From positions 682,001 through 746,000 of the forward strand of contig JAJQJQ010000034.1 of NCBI GenBank assembly GCA_028622995.1: a DNA stretch of 64,000 nt, written 5' to 3'. Origin of the DNA: Panagrolaimus kolymaensis (lineage: Eukaryota; Nematoda; Chromadorea; Rhabditida; Panagrolaimidae). A program made the position numbers and the translations under genes. This document shows positions 4,705-16,410 of the stretch, piece by piece. Position 1 is the first letter of the stretch. Every line of letters begins with the position of its first letter. The notes beneath the pieces were generated by a model. That model had not been told where the DNA came from. It worked only from the letters and a program-made list of their open reading frames with translations, and made no database searches.

Positions 4705-6210
4705 CTCTTGAGCCGTCTGCAACAATAATTACTAGAAACTCCGCTGCCTCCGGTCGGCGATCTTACTTGTTTTATTGAAAAATACAAAATTGCCACTCGT
4801 ATTAATGCCTATGTTTTAATAATTACTTTTCCAAAAAGTTATTGTATTGACTTTTATAAAAATTAAAACTTTTCCCGAACAATCTTATCACTCGTGTCTA
4901 TTTTAATCACTTAATTTTCAATAATGAGATCCTAAAAATTGAAACATGTGTAAGCCTTTAAAACTTTTTTTTTGCACGAATCAAAATAAACAATGAACTG
5001 AACCATTAAAAAAAAATTTATACCAGCTTGTGAAAAATTCGCAAAAAGTTAAGGTTATAGTCATCGAGCAAGCTTACAATAGTTAAATCACTTAATTTGC
5101 GCAGCAAGCAAACCCATGTTTTGCTGATTTTTTATGTATATGAAAATTACCCAAATCATTTCATCGCGCTTGGAAAACAAAATATAGTTTCATTCTAATT
5201 TATGCAAATTTTTTAGGTGAATTTCCTATTTTAATATAAAAGATTTCAAGATAAGATACAAAAAAACAGAGAGAAAAAGAATAATAATATGTATGGGAAA
5301 AAGCGAAGCCTAGTAGCCCTGGGACTGCGACCAAAAGTAATCGAAAACGAACGAACAATAAAAATTAATAAGAAGGAAATATTCAAGTTACTTTTCGATT
5401 AAACTCACCGAAAATAATAAAAAAAGTTCCCTATGTTTATTCTTTTCATAAACTAAACGTCAGCGTACTTTTAATTAAATTTTGCGTTTAGAATACCTAA
5501 AAGTTTTGTATGCTAATCCAATTAAATTTAGAAAAAAAAATATACGATCCAAAAGCTTAGTTAAAAAAAATTTCATTGAAAATCGTTAAAAATAATTTCG
5601 CTTTAATTTCATAATAAAGAAACTTAATATTCATAAAAAAAGTAAAATTTGTGAATATTTTATTAAAAATTTGCATATTTTCTAATGAAAACATTATTAA
5701 AAATCATAAAAAATTATTTGGATATAATTGTCTCAATTCAATTAAAACAATTAATAAAAAAAAATTGTGGGGATTCGAACCTATGACAGAAATATCCAAA
5801 CATCACCGCCTTCAACGCCTACGCCACACAGCAAATGTATAACAAGGAACTTTAGCCAATGATATTTTTACTCTAAATCAAAATATTTAAATTTCCATAG
5901 CGGCATACATCTATTTTTATGTGATGTTTTTTAAAGTTAGCTTACTCATAGAGGTAATTGAGGGTGGAGAAAACGATTTTTATAGCCAGAATATGCGTTA
6001 ACTTTGCTGCAACGCTCAGCGGGACATTGTGAACTTTTAAAATGTTGTGATTAAGCACTTTTTTTCTATACTTCCTTCTATTTTTTTTAAAAATTCGTCA
6101 ATGCGACGAAAAATTGACCCTAAAGAGCCCTCTAATATCAACATAATTACACGAAATAAAAAAAATCATAAATTTCGGTTAGCAGATCGGGCGTTCTCAT
6201 TGCTAAAACA
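4705..6210. other. Intergenic, AT-rich
   Basis: No gene is visible. The stretch holds the tRNA-like sequence annotated separately near 5765-5842 and ends at a GC-rich hairpin. Short open frames here (for example 6047-6274) have no coding character. Confidence 0.4.
5765..5842 (-). pseudogene. tRNA-like sequence with Pol III A and B boxes
   Basis: Read on the minus strand there is an A-box-like TGGCGTAGGCGTTGAAGG followed, with tRNA spacing, by a perfect B-box GGTTCGAATCC. The acceptor, anticodon and T stems do not pair acceptably (T stem ATAGG against CCCCA), and I cannot assign an anticodon with confidence. It is probably a decayed tRNA or the head of a tRNA-derived SINE. Confidence 0.4.
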
Positions 6211-6241
6211 GCCGCACCCCTCGCTTCGCTCGGGGTGCGGC
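6211..6241. repeat. GC-rich hairpin
   Basis: A perfect 10-bp inverted repeat (GCCGCACCCC, then GGGGTGCGGC) encloses an 11-nt loop in otherwise very AT-rich DNA, 38 bp downstream of the stop codon of the minus-strand TPR gene. It may be a structured 3' end element or part of a repeat; function unknown. Confidence 0.6.
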
Positions 6242-6278
6242 GGGAATAACAAAAGAAGAGCAAAACAGAAATGAGAAT

Positions 6279-7322
6279 TTATGATCGTTGATTAGCTTCA
6301 CGAATTTTAGCTTTAGCAAGAGCAAAGTTTTTTTTGTAGCTTTCATTGTTCGGATCTAATTCAAGAGCATTTTGATAATATTCAACAGCAACAAAGTAAT
6401 GGCCAAGACATGAAGCGATGAATCCCATACGACCATTAGGTTTAGCATATTTGTCATCAAGAAAAATTGCATCCTTACAATCCTAAAACTTTAATATTAC
6501 GTACCTTAAAGCAAGAAGAATACTCACAATAATGGCATTATCATATTTCTGAAGACGACAATAAGCAGCAGCACGATTACACAAATAAACAGGATCACGG
6601 TTTAAATCAATAGCTTCCGTGTATTTTTCGATTGCTTCATTGAATTTTGACGATTTCATGTATTCGTTACCTTGTTCCTTGAGAGCATTTGCTTTTATAA
6701 CATCTTCTGGTGTTGGAGTTGAAAGTTCTTTCTAAAAAACGAAAAAACTTAAGTACAAATGGATGAAAAATATATAAACATACAGCTTTAAGATTTTTTT
6801 TCAACAAAAGCAAGATTGTTTCCACTGAGTTCATCTTCAGGATCAAGATGAAGAGCTTTCTTGTAAGCGTCAATTGCATCCTTATAACGCTTTTGACTGG
6901 AAAAAGCTTTACCCAAAACAGAATGAGCAAATGCATATTCCGGATCAAGTTCAAGAGCGCTATGACAATCCTAAAATAATTTTCACAATAATTAAAAGAT
7001 GGAAAAAATATTTACTCACATTAATGGCATTATTATATTGCTTAGTCGCACCATAGCAAACTGCACGATTACAAAAGAGAGCAGGAGTCTGATATAATTC
7101 CAATGCTTGTGTATACTTTTCGATTGCTTCTTTGTAATTTCCGTTTTTAATGCATTCATTTGCTTCTAAACGTAGAGCAGTAACTTTATTCATATCATCG
7201 AATGTTGGAGTTGAAGAACCTCGTTTATCCTGAAGATTGATATATAAAAATGTTTTACCAAAATTAACCAAAAAATATATACTAACATTTATATTACCAG
7301 CAGATGGCTGATTTGACGACAT
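6279..7322 (-). CDS. Double SGT-type TPR protein, copy 1
   Basis: A predicted soluble co-chaperone-like protein made only of tetratricopeptide repeats; SGT proteins use such repeats to bind Hsp70/Hsp90 tails. Exons: 7287-7322, 7020-7229, about 6806-6970, 6528-6731, 6279-6482 (about 272 aa). It starts MSSNQPS like copy 2. Residues about 25-135 form one three-TPR module and about 140-272 a second; the second ends with an SGT-like GRMGF helix and ALELDPNN repeat. Introns fall at the same place in both modules (AIN|DC and AII|DC). SGT's N-terminal dimerisation and Gln-rich C-terminal regions are absent. Exon 3 read to the donor used by copy 2 contains a +1 shift and stop; an upstream GT restores frame. 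Copy 2 lies 1.5 kb upstream. Confidence 0.75.
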
Positions 7323-8835
7323 GATGAACGAATAATAAACTAAAAAAAGAAAGCTATGAATCTTCAAAAATAATAAAATGACGAGATAAAAATGTTAAAA
7401 ACAGCTCGTAAGAAAAGTAATGCAAAAAAAATAAACGAATAAAACTTTCTAATTGGTAAATATAAAAATTATTTAGACTTCCACTATGTCTAGGTTTTCT
7501 TATTTTTATTATTTAGCTTATTTCGTAATAGTTTGTAATCATTTTCTCTCCAAATTTTAGTCACCATTTTCCCTGCTATTTGTCCATATCCTATTTTGAA
7601 TTTTCTTTGTGTCTTTTGTGCGCCGCCGTTAATGGCTGTGAAAGCAACCTTTTGATTCATCGACTGGCACGTTTATCGCCTGTAATAACTCTGGTGAGAG
7701 CTATTAGAGAGAGCGACTGTTTTATTTAGTTTATTCCAAACTGAACTAAAGAAAAATACAAAAATTCACAAAAAGAGACAAATCTTCAAGATCCGCCTTT
7801 AGGGAGATACATGAGTTTAAATGTCAAATGGCACAATCAGATTAGAGAGTTTGGAGTGGGAAGGAATTTGAGCTGGCGGCCAGATGGGCTATATCAAGTG
7901 TTTTTGAGCTTGCCCAGCTTTGCCGATCTCAAATTCCATCGACTATAATATTTTACGATAAGACAGATTCAAATAAAAAAATTGATTAATTAAAAAAATA
8001 CAGTAACTTCAAGTTACAACATCACCCATCCATCCCCTTTTTTTGCCATATAAAAGCATTGTTGCTTCTGTTTTATGGAATGTGAAGTTTTGGAATAATA
8101 TTTGGATTGAAAATAAAGTTAATTTTTAAAGACAAACCCGCCGACGACAAAAAATGAACAATATTTTTACATTATTTTTATGTTACAAAACATAACTTTG
8201 CCTCAATTTGATAGTATCCATCGCAGCTACTTTAATTACATGACATGGTTGTCGCTATTATTCATCTTTTCCTTTATCTTCCCGCTTTCCTAGACTTGTT
8301 TACTATTTGTGGTTTCACAGCTATTACTCACATTTGTTTACAACGTCCACTAAATATCATATCCTTTTCTATCTATCTCTCTTTTTCTATTTCCCGCTTT
8401 TTATCCTTTTCACTATGATTCACTAACCATTGCAAACCATATAAAAATCACCGCGACTTAAACTTTAAACACACTTCGTTAGGCCTCACACTTCAATGAA
8501 ATCGCATTTTGTATTGGCTTTTGGTTTAATGCATTTCTATTTGTAAAGTTTAAGAAAAGACCGTTTTTCTCTTTTCTCGACAATGGTGAAACTAATTACA
8601 ACATTACATTTTTGAGGTATTTATCACTCTACTGTTTGATTGGATAAAAACTTGTTATGAAGCTAAGGATAAAATAGTGATAAAGACTTATTTAACTTAA
8701 TAAAAACTAGCAGTACACCTTTATTTTCAAACAAAAAATTAAACCACAAAAGGTTAAATTATCAAGAACAGCAAGAAAGTTCAAGTTCAAAAAACAATGG
8801 AAACACAAAAGAAAAATATGCAACACAAAACAGAT
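7323..8835. other. Intergenic between TPR copies 1 and 2
   Basis: The first about 120 bp resemble the sequence just upstream of copy 2 (9902-10010), showing that promoter-proximal DNA was duplicated too. The right end (about 8192-8260 and 8600-8800) is the 3' flanking module shared with the other copies. In between I see only AT-rich sequence. Confidence 0.5.
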
Positions 8836-9901
8836 TTAAGGTTGTTGATTAGCTTCTTGAAGCTTTGCTTCTGCAAGAGCAAGGTTTTCTTTGTAACTTT
8901 CATTGTTCGGATCCAATTCAAGAGCTGCTTTGTACGATGTAACAGCATGAACATAAAGACCAACACAGGAAAGGATAAATCCCATTCGACCATGAGCTTT
9001 AGCATAATTGTTATCAATAAAAAGAGCATCATCACAATCCTAAAAGATAAATGTTGCGAACTTTAAGGTAAAAATAATGCGAAAAATATACTCACATTTA
9101 AAGCATTGTCATATTGGAGAAGTTGGCAATGAGCAGCAGCCCGATTACACAAATAAACAGGATCACGGTTCAATGCAAAAGCTTGAGTATATTTTACGAT
9201 CGCTTCATTGAAATTGGATGCCTTCATACATTCATTTCCTTCTTCTTTGAGAGCATTTGCTTTTGAAATATCTTCTGCTGTTGGAGTTGGAGATCCTTCC
9301 TATAAATGATAAAAAACAAATGACTGAAGAAGAAAAAAAACAGAAACATACAGCTTTAAAATTTTCTTCAACGTGAGCAAGATCTCTTTTATAATCTTCA
9401 TTTTCAGGATCAAGTTCGAGAGCTTTCTTGTAAGCTTTAATTGCATCGGTAAATCGATTAGCAGAAGAAAATGTGAACCCAATTTGAGAATAAGCAGTTG
9501 CACATTCAGGATCAAGTTCAATGGCCGTACGACAATCCTAAAAAAATACAAAGGTTTGTTATGAAACAAAAGAAAAATATTGTTACATTGATGGCATCTT
9601 CGAATTGATCATTCATGCAGTATACACCAGCACGAAAACAAAAGATGATAGGATCAGGGTTCAATGAAATTGCATGAGTATACTTTTCTATCGCTTCTTC
9701 GTATTTTGCAGCTTTCATACATTCATGTGCAGCAGATGTGAGAGATACAGTCGCAAAATTTGCAAGATCATTAAGAGTAATTCCCGACGATTCTGGGTTA
9801 GCCTAAAAGAGTTTTTTAAATGTCTTACCAAAAAATGATATGAACAAAAATGAGCAATAACTTACAGCGATATTATCATCAGGTGGTTGATTTGACGACA
9901 T
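8836..9901 (-). CDS. Double SGT-type TPR protein, copy 2
   Basis: Intact paralogue of the neighbouring TPR gene. Exons 9866-9901, 9587-9802, 9352-9537, 9096-9299 and 8836-9039 all join in phase 0 and give 281 aa, starting MSSNQPPDD. Module 1 (about residues 35-145) and module 2 (about 150-281) each hold three TPR units, for example CRTAIELDPECATAYSQIG and AKAHGRMGFILSCVG. The C-terminal unit is very close to the last SGT/SGTA TPR plus its capping helix (ENLALAEAKLQEANQ). The intron pattern repeats in both modules, so the gene looks like an internal exon-pair duplication of an SGT TPR domain. No SGT dimerisation domain is present. Predicted cytosolic chaperone-binding role is inference from the family. 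Confidence 0.85.
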
Positions 9902-10148
9902 AATGAACACTAGATGAGCTAAAAGATGAAAGTTATAAAAGTCTTTAAAAATGATAGCGCGATAAAAAATGTCGAAAAACGGCTAAAAAAGAGGAAACAA
10001 AGTTGAACAACAAAAAAAAAGAATGAAAACTTTTTTTGGGCTGAAAAATTTGTGTTTGTTTTCGGTGTAAGAAACACAATTTACAAATGAAAGAGCAAAT
10101 TTTAAATTTTTGTTGCTTTTTTTTGTTAGGTTTTCATGAAATATGTAT

Positions 10149-10999
10149 AGAGACCGGCAAGTCGCATGCATGCCTGAGTGTTCCCCGTTATTTTTTTCGT
10201 CATTTAAAGCGGTAAAATAATAAATTTTTTTGCCAAGTTCAAAATTTTTCAAAACACCCTGTTTTTTTGTAAATTTTACAAAAAATGCACTGCTCTTTTT
10301 GTAAATGCCCCGCAAGTTTACAAAAAGAGCAGTGCATTTTTTGTAAAATTTACAAAAAAACAGGGTGTCTGGAAAAATTTTGAACTTGGCAAAAAAATTT
10401 ATTATTTTACCGCTTTATTTCATACGCGAAAAAGAGATTATTTTTTATTTATTTAATAAAGAACCTTTAAATTAAACATATTTATCTTAATATGTAATTT
10501 TATGTCCTGATTCCGAATATCCAACTTTTGAACCAAGTTTTCCTTCATTAATAGCTCCAAAACACACTTTTTTTGTGTTTTTTAGGGAATATATATTTAG
10601 CTACGACCCCTCTTCAACACTTTTTTTGTATGGGTCGATAGGAAATAAAATTCTACATTTTATAGTAAAGATGAAAAATCTCCCGGAATCGTCCTAAAAA
10701 TATGGCATCAAAAAAACTAATTATCTAGTTGATTTTGCCATGGAAAAGCACAAAAAAGAAAAGAAAATGGTTGCTAGCCGCATGCTTGCTGCATTTTTAC
10801 CCTTTCATTGAATAAACGAAAAGTGTTCTCTCGAACGAAAAATTTTTGATTTTACAAAATTTTAATTCGACTTTTTGAGGTTTTAATTAAGTCTTCTTCC
10901 ATTTATTTTTTTATATTCGGAATATTCATAGCATAAAATACTAGGTCCATACAAAATTTTGCAATTTTCAAATAAAAAAATTTCGAGCTGCCGGTCTCT
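10149..10999. mobile_element. Non-autonomous DNA transposon with TIRs and 10-bp TSD
   Basis: The left end AGAGACCGGCA (10149-10159) and right end TGCCGGTCTCT (10989-10999) are exact 11-bp terminal inverted repeats, extending to 14 of 16 bases. Both ends are flanked by the same 10 bp, AAATATGTAT (10139-10148 and 11000-11009), a target-site duplication. No transposase frame exists inside; a 213-bp palindrome occupies part of the left half. A 9-11 bp duplication is typical of Mutator-like elements, but the family cannot be assigned from the termini alone. Confidence 0.8.
10205..10417. repeat. 213-bp near-perfect palindrome inside the transposon
   Basis: The arms 10205-10305 and 10317-10417 (101 bp each) are reverse complements with only a few mismatches near 10260/10365, around an 11-nt spacer TGCCCCGCAAG. 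Transcription would give a long hairpin RNA. Confidence 0.8.
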
Positions 11000-11009
11000 A
11001 AATATGTAT

Positions 11010-12155
11010 TCATTAATTTTTGGATATTATTTTGTTAAAAAAGAAGTCGGTGTTTTTAATTTTGGTTTTATTGAGTTTATTACACAATATGAAGGTTATA
11101 AAAATAAATAAACAGTAAGCATTGAAATTAACAATCGTACAAAAAAAATTATAATTGACTGATTTGGTATATGCATTAATGATATTATTTGATTCGTTAG
11201 TAAAATCAGCAAGTGAGTGACTGTTACTTTGTAATTAGATCTGTTGGAATCCTTTTAAAGGAAAAAATACCTTTTTTAAACGAGTTCTGCATAAATTTGT
11301 ACTTTTTTTTGCTTTTTAGAAAATTTTTTTGTTACGTCCTCGATCTTAATGAATGACTTACACGTATTTTGTGATTAATACTCCGATATGACTAAGGTTT
11401 TCTAGTTTATTGTCCAGTATCGTAAATAAATAAATAATACAATCAAAAGTTATTAGTAAAATGGAACATTCAGTTAATATCAAAAGCTTAGTTTCTGGCT
11501 CGTCACAAGGGCCAGAATTTAATCGAAAATTAGGCAATGTTTATTTACTAGTTTTAGTGGCTTTTGTATGGTCGCCGTGGTTTCCTGATGAATAGTGGTC
11601 AATGATAAAAGTGATATTACTGTAATGACGTGCTGCGTGGGCGCGCCGTGAAATGGTGTGATACCTTGTCATTCCAAAGTCAGTGAATCACCAAGTTTTG
11701 TATGCCTGGCGTCTCTCCATATTTAGTGATCATTTAATGGTCGCGGAATGATGCTTTATGACATCATCTATAGTAATTTAGTGGCCCAGCGAGATTGATA
11801 AGCTCCATGTGGCAATCTTGTGGTAGGACCGAATGCCCTTTAATGACCAATACATGTATCTTTACTTAGTTGTTCTGAATTTATGCTTCAAGTTCAACAG
11901 ATTCGTTACATTTTTATATAAAATTATGAAAATAGACATGCGAATATGTAGCGATCGAGGCTTATTAAACTTAATAAAAACAAACAGTAAAACTTTACTT
12001 TCAAACAAAAAAATTTACGATAAAATGTTCAAGCAACAACAACAAAAAAGATGATAAATTCACAAAAAAGTATACTCAAATCAACAACAGAAAAATAAAA
12101 TTAAAGTTAAAAAAACAATGGAAAACAAAAGAAAAGCAAAATCAGCGATAAAGTT
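11010..12155. other. Intergenic, upstream flank of the orphan TPR exon
   Basis: No gene is visible. About 11905-12120 is the third copy of the TPR-gene 3' flanking module (TTACATTTTT, then a phrase like CTTATTAAACTTAATAAAAA). The open frame at 11833-12054 runs through this module and is not a gene. Confidence 0.5.
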
Positions 12156-12359
12156 TTATGGTTGTTGATTTGCTTCACGAAGTTTTGCTTCAGCAAGAAC
12201 AAGGTTTTCTTTATAACTTTGATTATTAGGATCCAATTCCAGAGCTTTTTTATACGATTCAGTAGATAACAAATAAAAACCTAAACAAGCAGTGATGAAT
12301 CCCATTCGACCATGAGCTTTAGTATAATTTGCATCAAGTAAAAGAGCATCCATACAATC
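12156..12359 (-). pseudogene. Orphan last exon of a third double-SGT TPR gene
   Basis: This 204-nt segment corresponds base for base in length to the last exon of both intact TPR genes, with an intact frame (DCMDALLL to EANQQP and stop) and a preserved AG acceptor. The next 1.8 kb upstream holds no other TPR exon and no promoter-proximal match. It is most likely a 5'-truncated duplicate, although the open frame leaves room for use as a distant exon. Confidence 0.75.
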
Positions 12360-14200
12360 CTAAAATTATGATATAAGATTGTAGAAAGGAATAGCAATAG
12401 TTTTAACAAAAAATGCTGCAAATTGATTCACGCTTATTTTTCGCGCTCATTTTAAGCAATTAAACTCAAGATTCGAAAAGTAGTTATGAAATAACATTAA
12501 AAATTACGACAAAGCTTGATGATTTATTTCATTGCTTGTAATTAATTTCCAATGGATTTTAGTTTAGATTTTAGCCAGAAAATGGAAATTTATGCTAATC
12601 TTAGGAAAACTCAATGATTTTCTAATTTATTGAACAAAATTTGAATTTTGCTATGAAGTATTTTTTTTTGTCATTTTGCATTAATTCCATTAATTTTTCA
12701 TAATGTTTGCGAGAGGGGGTCTTTTGAAATCCTTCTTTTAAAGAAAACAAAATTTATATGTTTTTGAAAACGGAATTTTGTATTAATTAGCTTTTTTTGC
12801 TTTCACGAATGTTTTTTTTATGTATTTATATAAAAAATAAACCTACGAACTTTTGGTTTAATTAACCAATTAAATGATAAAAGTGTAACTAGTTTGATTT
12901 CTATGATTTCGCGAAAAAAGGATATTCGTTAATTATTCCGGGAATTAAAATATCCGTATCCTTGTTTTTTATACATGTAATTTTTTTTCTTTTTCCACGA
13001 ATTCAGTAATTTGATGGATCTTTGGAGATAAAAGAAAAAGTGAAAACGATAAAAAAAAAAAGAGTTTTTTTTTGACCTAGAATAATCTAAAAAACAAATT
13101 TTGGTTGATTAAATTTTTTATCATTATCAGTTGATGTTAAAGAGTTATCTCTTTCTACGTGGGTGATCTCCATAAAAAGTGAAAATATTAAAGAAATTAA
13201 TCTTAAATTTTTCGTTTGTATATACCACTTCTTTTTTTTCGTTGTTCCAAATGTACAAAAGCTCCGATTTTTTTATATTCGTGAAGAATCTAAAATTCAA
13301 AATCAAAGTAATTTTAGCATAAAAGAATTTTTTTTCTCTTCCATTTCTTACAACAAAAAACTTTTGTAGCCTCAAGCAACAGAAGCAAAACCAAAGAAAA
13401 ACCCTTGCAATTGACCGTATTTAAATTGAAAGAGTGGATTTTATTTTATTTTTTTCTTACGCAGCTCTTGTTCTAAATTATTTTCTCTCTCTTTTTTTTT
13501 TATTCTCTTTCTTGGTAATAACCTTTTTGAAAGTAACTAACTAAAGTTGCTCAATTTTCTTTCTTTCATTATTTTTCTTTTCATGATTTTTTTTATTACT
13601 TCGAATGAGATTGGTGAAAGAAAGTGAGGGGAAAAAAGTCATTCGGTCATTATTGTCAAACAAAAAAATAAATAAAAAAGCAGCACAATAATTAAGTTTC
13701 TTTGACTTTTTTTTGAATCAAAAATAGGGCACTGCCTGCTACCTCCTCAAAATCCTTTATAAAACCCTTAAAGATGAAAAAATGAAATGAAATAAAAATA
13801 AAAAAGTTTTAAACTAACTAACTAACATACTACTCTAAAACTACGGAAGCAAATTAGATTTAAAAAAATTTTTATTTTAATTTACGAAATAAATTTTTCC
13901 TGTTTCATTTTTTTTTCTTTCAAACATCCGCTCTTTGAATGGTTTTTAAGAGGAGGAACTTTGACTTCGATAATCTTTCAGTTTAAGTTTTTTTATGTTT
14001 TTTCGGCTACTACATAAATAAAATATATACTCGATTCGAAGTCATTCCCTTTTTTCAAAAGATAGATTTAGATTTAGTTAGGTTAAGTAGAACTTATGAT
14101 CCCGCGTGTAAATTGCTACTGCCTTCCTTCTTTCTCGTTATTTGTTGTTGTTCCGGAAAATGTCAAAAAAGTAATGAAAATAGTTTACTTTATTATTTTT
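12360..14200. other. Intergenic, low complexity
   Basis: AT-rich DNA with homopolymer runs and no supported gene. Overlapping open frames on both strands near 13145-13375 are Phe/Lys-rich and look like chance frames. Confidence 0.5.
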
Positions 14201-14205
14201 TTCAG
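14194..14205 (+). promoter_or_regulatory. Probable trans-splice acceptor of the warthog gene
   Basis: A T-run ending TTTTTTTCAG lies 5 nt before the ATG, and no donor or upstream exon is visible. This fits a spliced-leader acceptor; a 5'-UTR intron is the alternative. Confidence 0.5.
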
Positions 14206-14210
14206 GAAAT

Positions 14211-16410
14211 ATGTGGTTGAAACTTATTGGGTATAATATTTTAATATTATTTTTTATCCATGTTGGAAATTGCCAAGCAGCTTCAAATGCTAAAAGTTGT
14301 GGATATAATTCGGTTCCATATTTCTTTAATGTTGATTTAAATGGTTCACCTGAAATTCAATGTGAAATGCCTCCATGTTTTGGAGGATCCCCACCTTCAT
14401 CATCTGAAGAAGAACCCTATGAATTTGGAAATCGAAATAGTATGGGTTTGGGTCGACGAAGAAGACATAAAAAAAGTTTGGGTGAACGAATTGCTGAATG
14501 CACTGGACGCTTCACTGAGCAGGTGTGTTCTCAACCTGATGAATGGACTGCTGGGGTCATGGATTACAATAATGGCACCCATCTTTTATTGAAAGCTGAA
14601 TGTTGTAGTTATGATGGATTAAATAATGCGTCATATATTACAACAAAAACTTTAAGACCCGGTGAAAATTATGTGGGTGGTAATGTATTAGAGCAAAACA
14701 AATTAGTCGCGTTTGATTTGATTAAAGAAGTCCGAAAAAATGTTGATTCCAGTAATCAGTCAGTCATCCAAACATTTTTTTTGAAATTAAATTAAATAAA
14801 TATTTTTAGAGCGGTTTATGTTGTAACTATTTATCGGATGATTTGCATTCCGGATCCCTTGGAGCGTCGAAATAAAATTTCTCCATATTTTGACAATGAT
14901 GGAATTTATGATTCTGAAGATTTTGGACTTCCAGCTGGTTATCGAATGAGATCCCGAGCTGGTGAATATGCTCTTCCTTCTTACAATGGCCATCATAATC
15001 GTCGATATCGTCCAATGTATCGTTCACAATCACAAATTCGTCGACGTCCTTCTCCTCGAAGAAGATATTATCGGCCACTTTTTGATGAATATGATGATTA
15101 TTATGATTTTGAACCTTTACCCGTTGTTCGACGACCTTTGCGTAGGCCTTATAGACCCAGGTTGGTTTGATATTATAAGTTATAAATTTTAGATAATTTT
15201 TTTTATAGATATGAAGCAGAAGCATATTATGGACCAAAACAAAGAGCTCGTGCTTATGCTGAAACTGGAGGATACAGTAACCCACAAACTGAGCCTTTGG
15301 AAGCATATCCCGAACATGAAGAAGGACATAAAAATCCTTTGCCCGCTGCATATGGTGAACAATCATATTCGCAACAACCCCAAAATCAATTACCCTTGCC
15401 TGAAATTCAACCTCAACAACAAAGTTCTTTCATTGCGCCACCACCTCCAACTCTTCAAGTAACAATTTTTTTTGTGATTTTCCTTTAAAATAATGTTGCG
15501 CATTTTAGGGTTATGTTACACCTCAACAAAGCTATTTACCTCCACCACCTCCTCCACCACCACAAATTCAATCCTCATACAACGCATATCCAAGTTATCA
15601 ACCATCACCACAAGCCACTTCTTGCGTAGCAGATCCTTGTGCAGCTAGTCAAAGTGCTTACCCACAACAAAGTTATGGCCAAAGTAGTGGTGGTCAAGGA
15701 GGTGGAGGTGATCTTAACAGCGTTTTCTCTTCTTTGCAATGCTTCAGCGGGGATATGACCGTTCAAACTCCATCTGGACTTAAACGAATGGATGAATTGG
15801 AAATTGGTGATATGGTTTTATCCATCGAATACTCAATGGTAAAAAAAATTAATTAGGTCAAATAATAAAAATAAGTAATTCCTCTTTTTAGATTTCTTAT
15901 ACCCCTGTAGTGATGTTTTTACATAACGAACCAAAGGAAGTTGCTATGTTCAAAGAAATTGAAACCGCAGATAATAAAAAATTGAAGCTTACTGAATTCC
16001 ATCTCATTTATGTAACAAGTTGCAAACAAGAACCTCTTAAACTTATTCATGCAAAAGATGTAAAAGTTGGACAATGCGTTCACATAGTCGAAGATTCTCA
16101 ACAATCACTTAAATCAAGTGAAGTTATTGCAATTAAAGATGTTGAAGAAATTGGAATTTATGCTCCTTTAACTTATTCTGGAGATGTTATGGTTAATCAA
16201 GTTCTTGCAAGTTGTCATAGTAATATGGGAATTCAAACTCTTCAACAAACTTTCTTTTCATGGTATCGAAAAGTTAGTGGAACTATAGCTTTAATGCGAA
16301 GCATGTTTGGAATGGAACCAAATGAAGAAATCAGTGGCTGTTTGCCTTATGGAGTTAAATATTTAACTTCAGCTTTGGATGTCATTGTTCCAAAATCACT
16401 CTTTTCTTAA
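14211..16410 (+). CDS. Warthog-type hedgehog-related protein with Hint domain
   Basis: Secreted nematode hedgehog-related protein of the warthog group, tied in worms to cuticle and molting biology. Exons 14211-14758, 14810-15160, 15209-15458, 15509-15838, 15892-16410 give 665 aa. There is a signal peptide (about 1-24). The Wart-like domain includes CGYNSVPYFF, MPPCFGG, ECCSYDGL, NYVGGN and AVYVVTIYR. A basic RRRRHKK near residue 84 looks like a furin site. An Arg/Tyr-rich and then Pro/Gln-rich linker leads to an autoprocessing Hint domain starting at Cys461 (CFSGDMTVQTPSG) with the TEFHLIYV motif. In hedgehog this Cys and His drive cleavage at the domain border. Donor GTCAGT of exon 1 was chosen because it alone gives AVYVVT in frame. 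Group member not assigned. Confidence 0.88.

Follow-up and report, generated by a model that had tools for sequence, protein, structure and literature searches.

The genome of the free-living nematode Panagrolaimus kolymaensis holds a large family of genes that encode two successive three-repeat tetratricopeptide (TPR) modules of the SGT type. Two of them form a tandem pair on the minus strand of the stretch analysed here (the window; 64,000 nt, contig JAJQJQ010000034.1, positions 682,001–746,000), copy 1 at 6279–7322 and copy 2 at 8836–9901. Across the family a single module doubling preceded gene expansion; the second module keeps a clamp for chaperone tails, and the first is without it and has diversified at its ligand-contacting groove. 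We consider it probable (roughly 0.6), judging from sequence, that an SGT-derived gene was doubled once and that its descendants combine a constant chaperone-docking module with a diversifying recognition module. A preliminary description of the window had reported both genes with two SGT-like modules and phase-0 introns at the same spot in each module, which we confirm; it covered two genes, whereas their layout is the norm of a large family in this genome.

A large family with one constant and one diversified groove

The genome searched is a 265.8 Mb assembly of 807 contigs containing three pseudohaplotypes; the published assembly is described as triploid and 266 Mb long (PMC10374039, partial text). 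Module 2 as a query gave at least 196 exon matches genome-wide. Among the matches listed for three queries, 351 distinct matches form 118 clusters on 29 contigs, with nine clusters at SGT loci (contig C45, loci L061 and L062, by the sequence read; C21 and C4 by position) and 109 elsewhere. A fourth query, from another part of the gene, added no cluster, all 150 of the 150 matches listed falling on known ones. With three pseudohaplotypes in the assembly, this corresponds to roughly 36 loci per set.

Seventy clusters were modelled, from 40 fetched loci plus the window. Denoting the exons for the first and second halves of a module A and B, 52 of the 70 are A-B-A-B, four A-B-A-B-B, four A-B, four B, two B-A-B, two A-B-B, one A-B-A-A-B and one A-B-A, making the two-module layout the norm in the fetched sample. 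The A-B-A-B models are open in 45 of 52 cases (copy 1 counted among them) and not open in seven. Upstream of all 45 open models lies a start peptide of 11–18 residues resembling MSSNQPSAGNIN, which begins MSS in 34; the search behind this result was biased towards MS and NQ and was run without a shuffled control.

Module number also varies. Locus L016 (C20, about 2177801–2179233) is a family member with three modules, the third a further A-B repeat. The near identity of the first two B exons at this locus suggests that modules are still being doubled. An additional B-type exon is carried by the A-B-A-B-B genes at L034, L047, L021 and L023.

The two modules differ sharply in the Hsp70/Hsp90 tail clamp, whose five residues, those of SGT and HOP, were placed at columns set on SGT. 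Among the 45 open genes, module 2 retains all five residues in 35, four in seven, three in two and two in one; module 1 retains two in 15, one in 16 and none in 14. An SGT-type three-TPR domain with five clamp residues is thus found in module 2, module 1 failing on the clamp. TPR positions 2, 5, 6, 9, 12 and 13 bind ligand in co-crystals of HOP TPR1 and TPR2A (PMC1261162, partial text). Across 30 representative genes, the mean entropy of this groove in module 1 is 2.67 bits, against 0.71 for the fold core and 1.42 for other positions (groove versus other, Mann–Whitney 6e-7); the module 2 values are 0.64, 0.91 and 1.27 bits. The module 1 excess persists on omission of the five clamp columns (2.56 versus 1.42, p 6e-5) and with an alternative groove set of positions 2, 5, 9, 12, 13 and 33 (2.52 versus 1.47, p 2e-5). 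Groove positions are the most variable across TPRs at large (PMC1261162, in the part available), and the unusual point is therefore the contrast between sister modules of the same genes. No two of the 30 module 1 grooves are alike, and the mean difference between them is 14.4 of 18 positions; for module 2, 24 of 30 grooves are distinct and the mean difference is 3.9 positions. Their composition is 52% apolar and 9% Lys/Arg in module 1, 40% and 22% in module 2.

Substitution rates follow the same division. Pairwise counts over 44 genes in four bins of synonymous divergence (dS) give a ratio of nonsynonymous to synonymous change (dN/dS) of 1.54 to 2.24 for the module 1 groove and 0.14 to 0.28 for that of module 2, with core values of 0.32–0.54. 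Codon maximum likelihood on the 30 representatives estimates omega at 1.75 (groove), 0.31 (core) and 0.77 (other) in module 1, and at 0.19, 0.32 and 0.58 in module 2. Fixing the module 1 groove at an omega of 1 costs a twofold log-likelihood difference (2dlnL) of 9.8 when kappa takes its best null value; with six rows omitted, omega is 1.86 and 2dlnL 10.4. As a control, 40 random sets of 18 codons from all 101 module 1 TPR codons have a mean omega of 0.79 and a maximum of 1.13.

Probable doubling of the SGT exon pair

In this genome's own SGT gene (L061), the TPR domain occupies two exons with phase-0 boundaries on either side; it begins after ..GLKA/ and is split at ..AIQ/DCRT.. (slash, exon boundary). 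The family boundaries match these, B exons starting with DC in 74 of 90 cases over the 45 open models, in a gene model that seeks only phase-0 sites near the expected place, making other phases undetectable. About 3 kb beyond SGT, L062 holds two single-module SGT paralogs without the dimerisation region and with a Met/Gln-rich end. Searched at the protein level, the genome matches the SGT dimerisation region at three SGT loci and, weakly (7.4e-6), at one further place on C2. The last exon of all 45 open models comprises 64–74 residues including the stop, and the Gln/Met-rich C-terminus present in L061 and L062 is not seen there. Loss of both SGT ends, as proposed in the preliminary description, is supported by these two results.

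In a tree of 88 rows and 137 columns, built with both modules of the 30 representative genes, all 30 first modules group with two single-module genes in one clade (support 98, starred), and all 30 second modules with two other single-module genes in another (99, starred). Removal of three long outgroup rows leaves both clades at 98 (starred) and makes them sisters at 90 (not starred). One clade of first modules and one of second modules imply that a single module doubling preceded gene expansion. In the 88-row tree both modules fall with nematode SGT, on a split from the STI1 outgroup (92, not starred) that is not clean: the five outgroup rows are three from P0123, STI1-like as judged by layout, and two from the SGT-like P0007, and two non-nematode SGT rows are placed on the outgroup side. 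A doubling of the SGT exon pair as the family's origin is supported; the duplication of an exon pair within the gene, suggested earlier from the intron positions, agrees with the L061 layout and with the separate module clades.

In profile searches, the best PDB match of module 2 is SGTA (2vyi, 1.5e-34), the next natural protein being STIP1 (1.3e-27); module 1 matches SGTA at 1.5e-22, with OGT, STIP1 and engineered TPRs scoring equally or higher. The Pfam matches of copy 2, a protein of two modules and 281 residues, include no STI1 or DP model.

Compared with SGT/SGTA (nematode sgt-1, here L061), the family shares the three-TPR module, its two phase-0 exons and their boundaries, and, in module 2 but not module 1, the five clamp residues. 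It differs in having two modules, in lacking the N-terminal dimerisation region and the Gln/Met-rich C-terminus, and in comprising many genes, whereas the dimerisation region occurs at one place per pseudohaplotype. The SGT-like single-module Panagrolaimus paralogs (L062; P0009 of P. davidi; P0267 of sp. PS1159; P0008) are likewise without the dimerisation region but have one module and keep the Gln/Met-rich end. HOP/STI1 carries more than one clamp-type three-TPR module per chain, together with a third TPR module and DP regions. The family resembles it in the former respect only: no third module or DP regions were seen, the modules are SGT-like with one lacking the clamp, and the genes are numerous and fast evolving.

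Two-module SGT-like arrangements also occur elsewhere. The plant protein P0007 (Rutidosis; named hsp70-Hsp90 organizing protein 1-like at source) is 483 residues long with two SGT-like three-TPR modules; as single stretches these score higher against SGTA and Sgt2 (104 and 92 bits) than against HOP modules taken one at a time. They are alike and are joined at 100 (starred) in the tree, indicating a separate doubling in the plant, so that doubling of an SGT-like module has happened more than once. Two metagenome proteins, P0121 and P0175, are short fragments with SGT-type modules in a row and an intron-like stretch at the same AI/DC place; unlike the family, they show no linker exon boundary between modules, and approximately unbiased (AU) tests did not reject holding their modules with module 1 or with module 2 (p 0.54, 0.56). 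The named Panagrolaimus proteins among the matches listed seem to have one module each, judging from their length and coverage and from 23 sequences read. Those of P. davidi and P. superbus come from the best 120 of 1108 and the best 120 of 975, those of sp. PS1159 from the best 120 of 605, which is weak evidence that the two-module family is absent there. The statement that no double-SGT family had been described holds for the literature as far as its available text goes (including PMC3296651, PMC5738622 and PMC6889759), in which we found no paper on one. The words 'tetratricopeptide' and 'TPR' are not present in the main text of the 2019 panagrolaimid genome paper, and si96, a TPR target in the P. 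superbus RNA interference panel, has no result that we found in the part of that paper available (PMC5738622).

The gene pair in the window and its surroundings

Each gene of the pair has five exons, and a phase-0 intron placed just ahead of Asp-Cys divides each module: AIN/DC and AII/DC in copy 1, AIN/DC and ALN/DC in copy 2 (Table 1). All introns are GT..AG and phase 0, exon 3 of copy 1 being the exception, and the frame of copy 2 is open over 281 residues. Compared exon by exon, the copies are identical at 67–81% of bases. Their DNA homology spans about 84 nt 5′ of the start and 36 nt 3′ of the stop; the tandem duplication with flanks that had been proposed therefore stands for these short flanks only.

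Table 1 Exons of the gene pair, a lone family exon and the family gene beside Hsp70
Feature	Position	Strand	Remark
Copy 2 exon 1	9866..9901	-	MSSNQPPDDNIA, start codon
Copy 2 exon 2, A1	9587..9802	-	Module 1 first half
Copy 2 exon 3, B1	9352..9537	-	Module 1 second half; module 1 without clamp
Copy 2 exon 4, A2	9096..9299	-	Module 2 first half; clamp K and two N retained
Copy 2 exon 5, B2	8836..9039	-	Module 2 second half and stop; clamp K and R retained
Copy 1 exon 1	7287..7322	-	MSSNQPSAGNIN
Copy 1 exon 2, A1	7020..7229	-	Module 1 first half
Copy 1 exon 3, B1	6784..6970	-	Module 1 second half; 187 nt, stop near end
Copy 1 exon 4, A2	6528..6731	-	Module 2 first half
Copy 1 exon 5, B2	6279..6482	-	Module 2 second half and stop
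Lone B2-type family exon	12159..12359	-	73% to copy 2; remnant
G000, family gene and Hsp70 neighbour	C3:2672458-2676566		Counterparts on C5, C11

Exon 3 of copy 1, at 187 nt, does not divide evenly into codons and runs into a stop close to its end, and the automatic model stays open solely through an upstream GT; either the exon is frame-disturbed or an upstream donor may be used in splicing. On C37 and C25, the genes in the corresponding position have an open exon 3 (proteins 81% and 80% identical to copy 1), and the counterparts of copy 2 on the same contigs are 90% and 91% identical to it. The same frame problem recurs at the end of the third exon of L042, a different family gene on C33, the contig of the window, and slippage, conversion or a shared upstream donor could account for both. 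On the other two contigs the counterparts of the two copies flank an extra A-B-A-B-B family gene (L021/L023); the corresponding window interval, 7323–8835, is without it. Within 10001–14500 of the window, the lone B2-type exon was the only family exon found.

Several other features surround the pair. Upstream of copy 2, 10205–10417 is a near-perfect palindrome with 101-nt arms, 98% complementary and 11 nt apart, which looks like a miniature inverted-repeat transposable element. An imperfect hairpin with 21-nt arms (76% complementary) and a G+C-rich core occupies 6200–6252, about 27 nt past the copy 1 stop. Open frames at 14184–16410 include, by eye, a Hint-like stretch and probably belong to a hedgehog-related gene. 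Positions 5770–5840 resemble by eye the 3′ half of a tRNA on the minus strand; ARAGORN finds no tRNA in the window.

Family genes also stand beside an Hsp70 gene. On each of C3, C5 and C11 a family gene and an Hsp70 gene ending in EEVD are arranged head to head, about 1.0–1.2 kb apart as measured by open frames. The neighbour is a single open frame, apparently intronless, that matches heat shock 70 kDa protein 1A at 7.9e-174 (1.3 kb read on C3; C5 and C11 by match). An EEVD-stop site near a family gene on C37 was considered as Hsp70 and rejected, as it belongs to an unrelated gene.

Proposed function, alternatives and meaning

From clamp retention and groove variation we infer that module 2 docks chaperones and that module 1 binds variable targets. 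In the scheme we propose, the two SGT TPR-domain exons of an ancestral gene would have been duplicated in tandem, the dimerisation region and Gln/Met-rich end then lost and the gene multiplied. Module 2 would dock on the EEVD tails of Hsp70/Hsp90, as in SGT, and module 1 would bind other peptides or tails through its diversified, mostly apolar groove, so that the client to which chaperones are brought would differ from paralog to paralog; a chain with two modules may replace the SGT dimer. A set of adaptors that brings Hsp70/Hsp90 to different peptides is the most likely mechanism.

Several points count against this scheme. The groove omega comes from 18 codons, under a model without site variation or gene conversion between paralogs. 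Over 18 pairs within groups more than 85% identical, pooled dN/dS is 0.53 for module 1 and 0.35 for module 2, and exceeds 1 in only three module 1 pairs and one module 2 pair. The seven A-B-A-B models that are not open, with the disturbed copy 1, point to decay or faulty modelling in some members of the family. Sisterhood of the two modules has a support of 90 (unstarred), the 88-row tree was built from 137 columns, and an AU test did not reject module 2 held with nematode SGT (p 0.57), a placement that scored slightly better. The Hsp70 adjacency is confined to a single locus group and could be coincidental; EEVD-stop sites number 46 genome-wide, below the 132 of the control, and the pattern alone is no evidence.

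Among the alternatives, an arms race may have diversified the module 1 groove, which would then act as a decoy for parasite or selfish proteins, or be their target, in place of client recruitment. Such conflict would fit the groove omega above 1 and the tandem arrays, which vary from contig to contig. It would also fit the selection pattern of nematode F-box A1 proteins, whose docking domain is under purifying selection and whose substrate domain is under positive selection (Thomas 2006, cited in PMC12062965, partial text). A pure decoy, however, would have no need of the five clamp residues that module 2 keeps in 35 of 45 genes, and we regard this explanation as unlikely. The near-pair ratio, higher in module 1 than in module 2, could also reflect relaxed selection on a useless module with an unconstrained groove, in a fast-amplifying and largely non-functional family; the broken and rearranged genes (besides the models that are not open, 18 of 70 clusters have another pattern) point the same way. 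Relaxation alone predicts an omega near 1 everywhere, whereas variation in module 1 is concentrated in the groove, where omega exceeds 1, and its core shows no less conservation than the module 2 core (entropy 0.71 versus 0.91, omega 0.31 versus 0.32), which makes this account improbable. In a HOP-like bridge, one chaperone would sit on module 2, and module 1 would always bind the same second partner, for example the tail of another chaperone. The pairing of TPR modules within a chain, known from HOP, would suit it, as would the Hsp70 domains among those linked to cryptobiotic Panagrolaimus (PMC6889759, partial text), but a module 1 clamp of at most two residues in 45 of 45 genes and 30 different grooves in 30 representatives are hard to fit to one partner, rendering it distinctly improbable. 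Least plausible is a fusion of a generic TPR gene before an SGT module: module 1 scores higher against engineered TPR arrays, OGT, SPAG1, STIP1 and RPAP3 than against SGTA, and the AU result above would allow it, but multi-repeat targets gain score through repeated matches, the modules are sisters in the best tree, and both have SGT exon boundaries.

The adaptor reading, with one constant docking module and one diversifying recognition module, has a close parallel in the nematode F-box A1 (FBXA) proteins, adaptors that are also encoded by many genes and that combine a conserved docking domain with a substrate domain under positive selection; they are otherwise different proteins of the ubiquitin-ligase machinery, the family using a chaperone clamp and a TPR groove. 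TPR co-chaperones are usually slow-evolving, conserved proteostasis genes. Here one domain copy is frozen and its twin changes fastest at ligand-contacting positions, a natural experiment on TPR specificity. If the adaptor reading is true, the docking/variable logic of nematode ubiquitin-ligase adaptors would extend to chaperone recruitment. More tentatively, and with the odds somewhat against it, the family may constitute a germline repertoire of chaperone adaptors, with one groove fixed for Hsp70/Hsp90 and the other positively selected in dozens of genes. The host survives freezing and drying, which, with the Hsp70 domains linked to cryptobiosis in the genus, makes a link to cryptobiosis testable. 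With such a repertoire the animal could send chaperones to many protein tails, perhaps foreign or desiccation-damaged ones.

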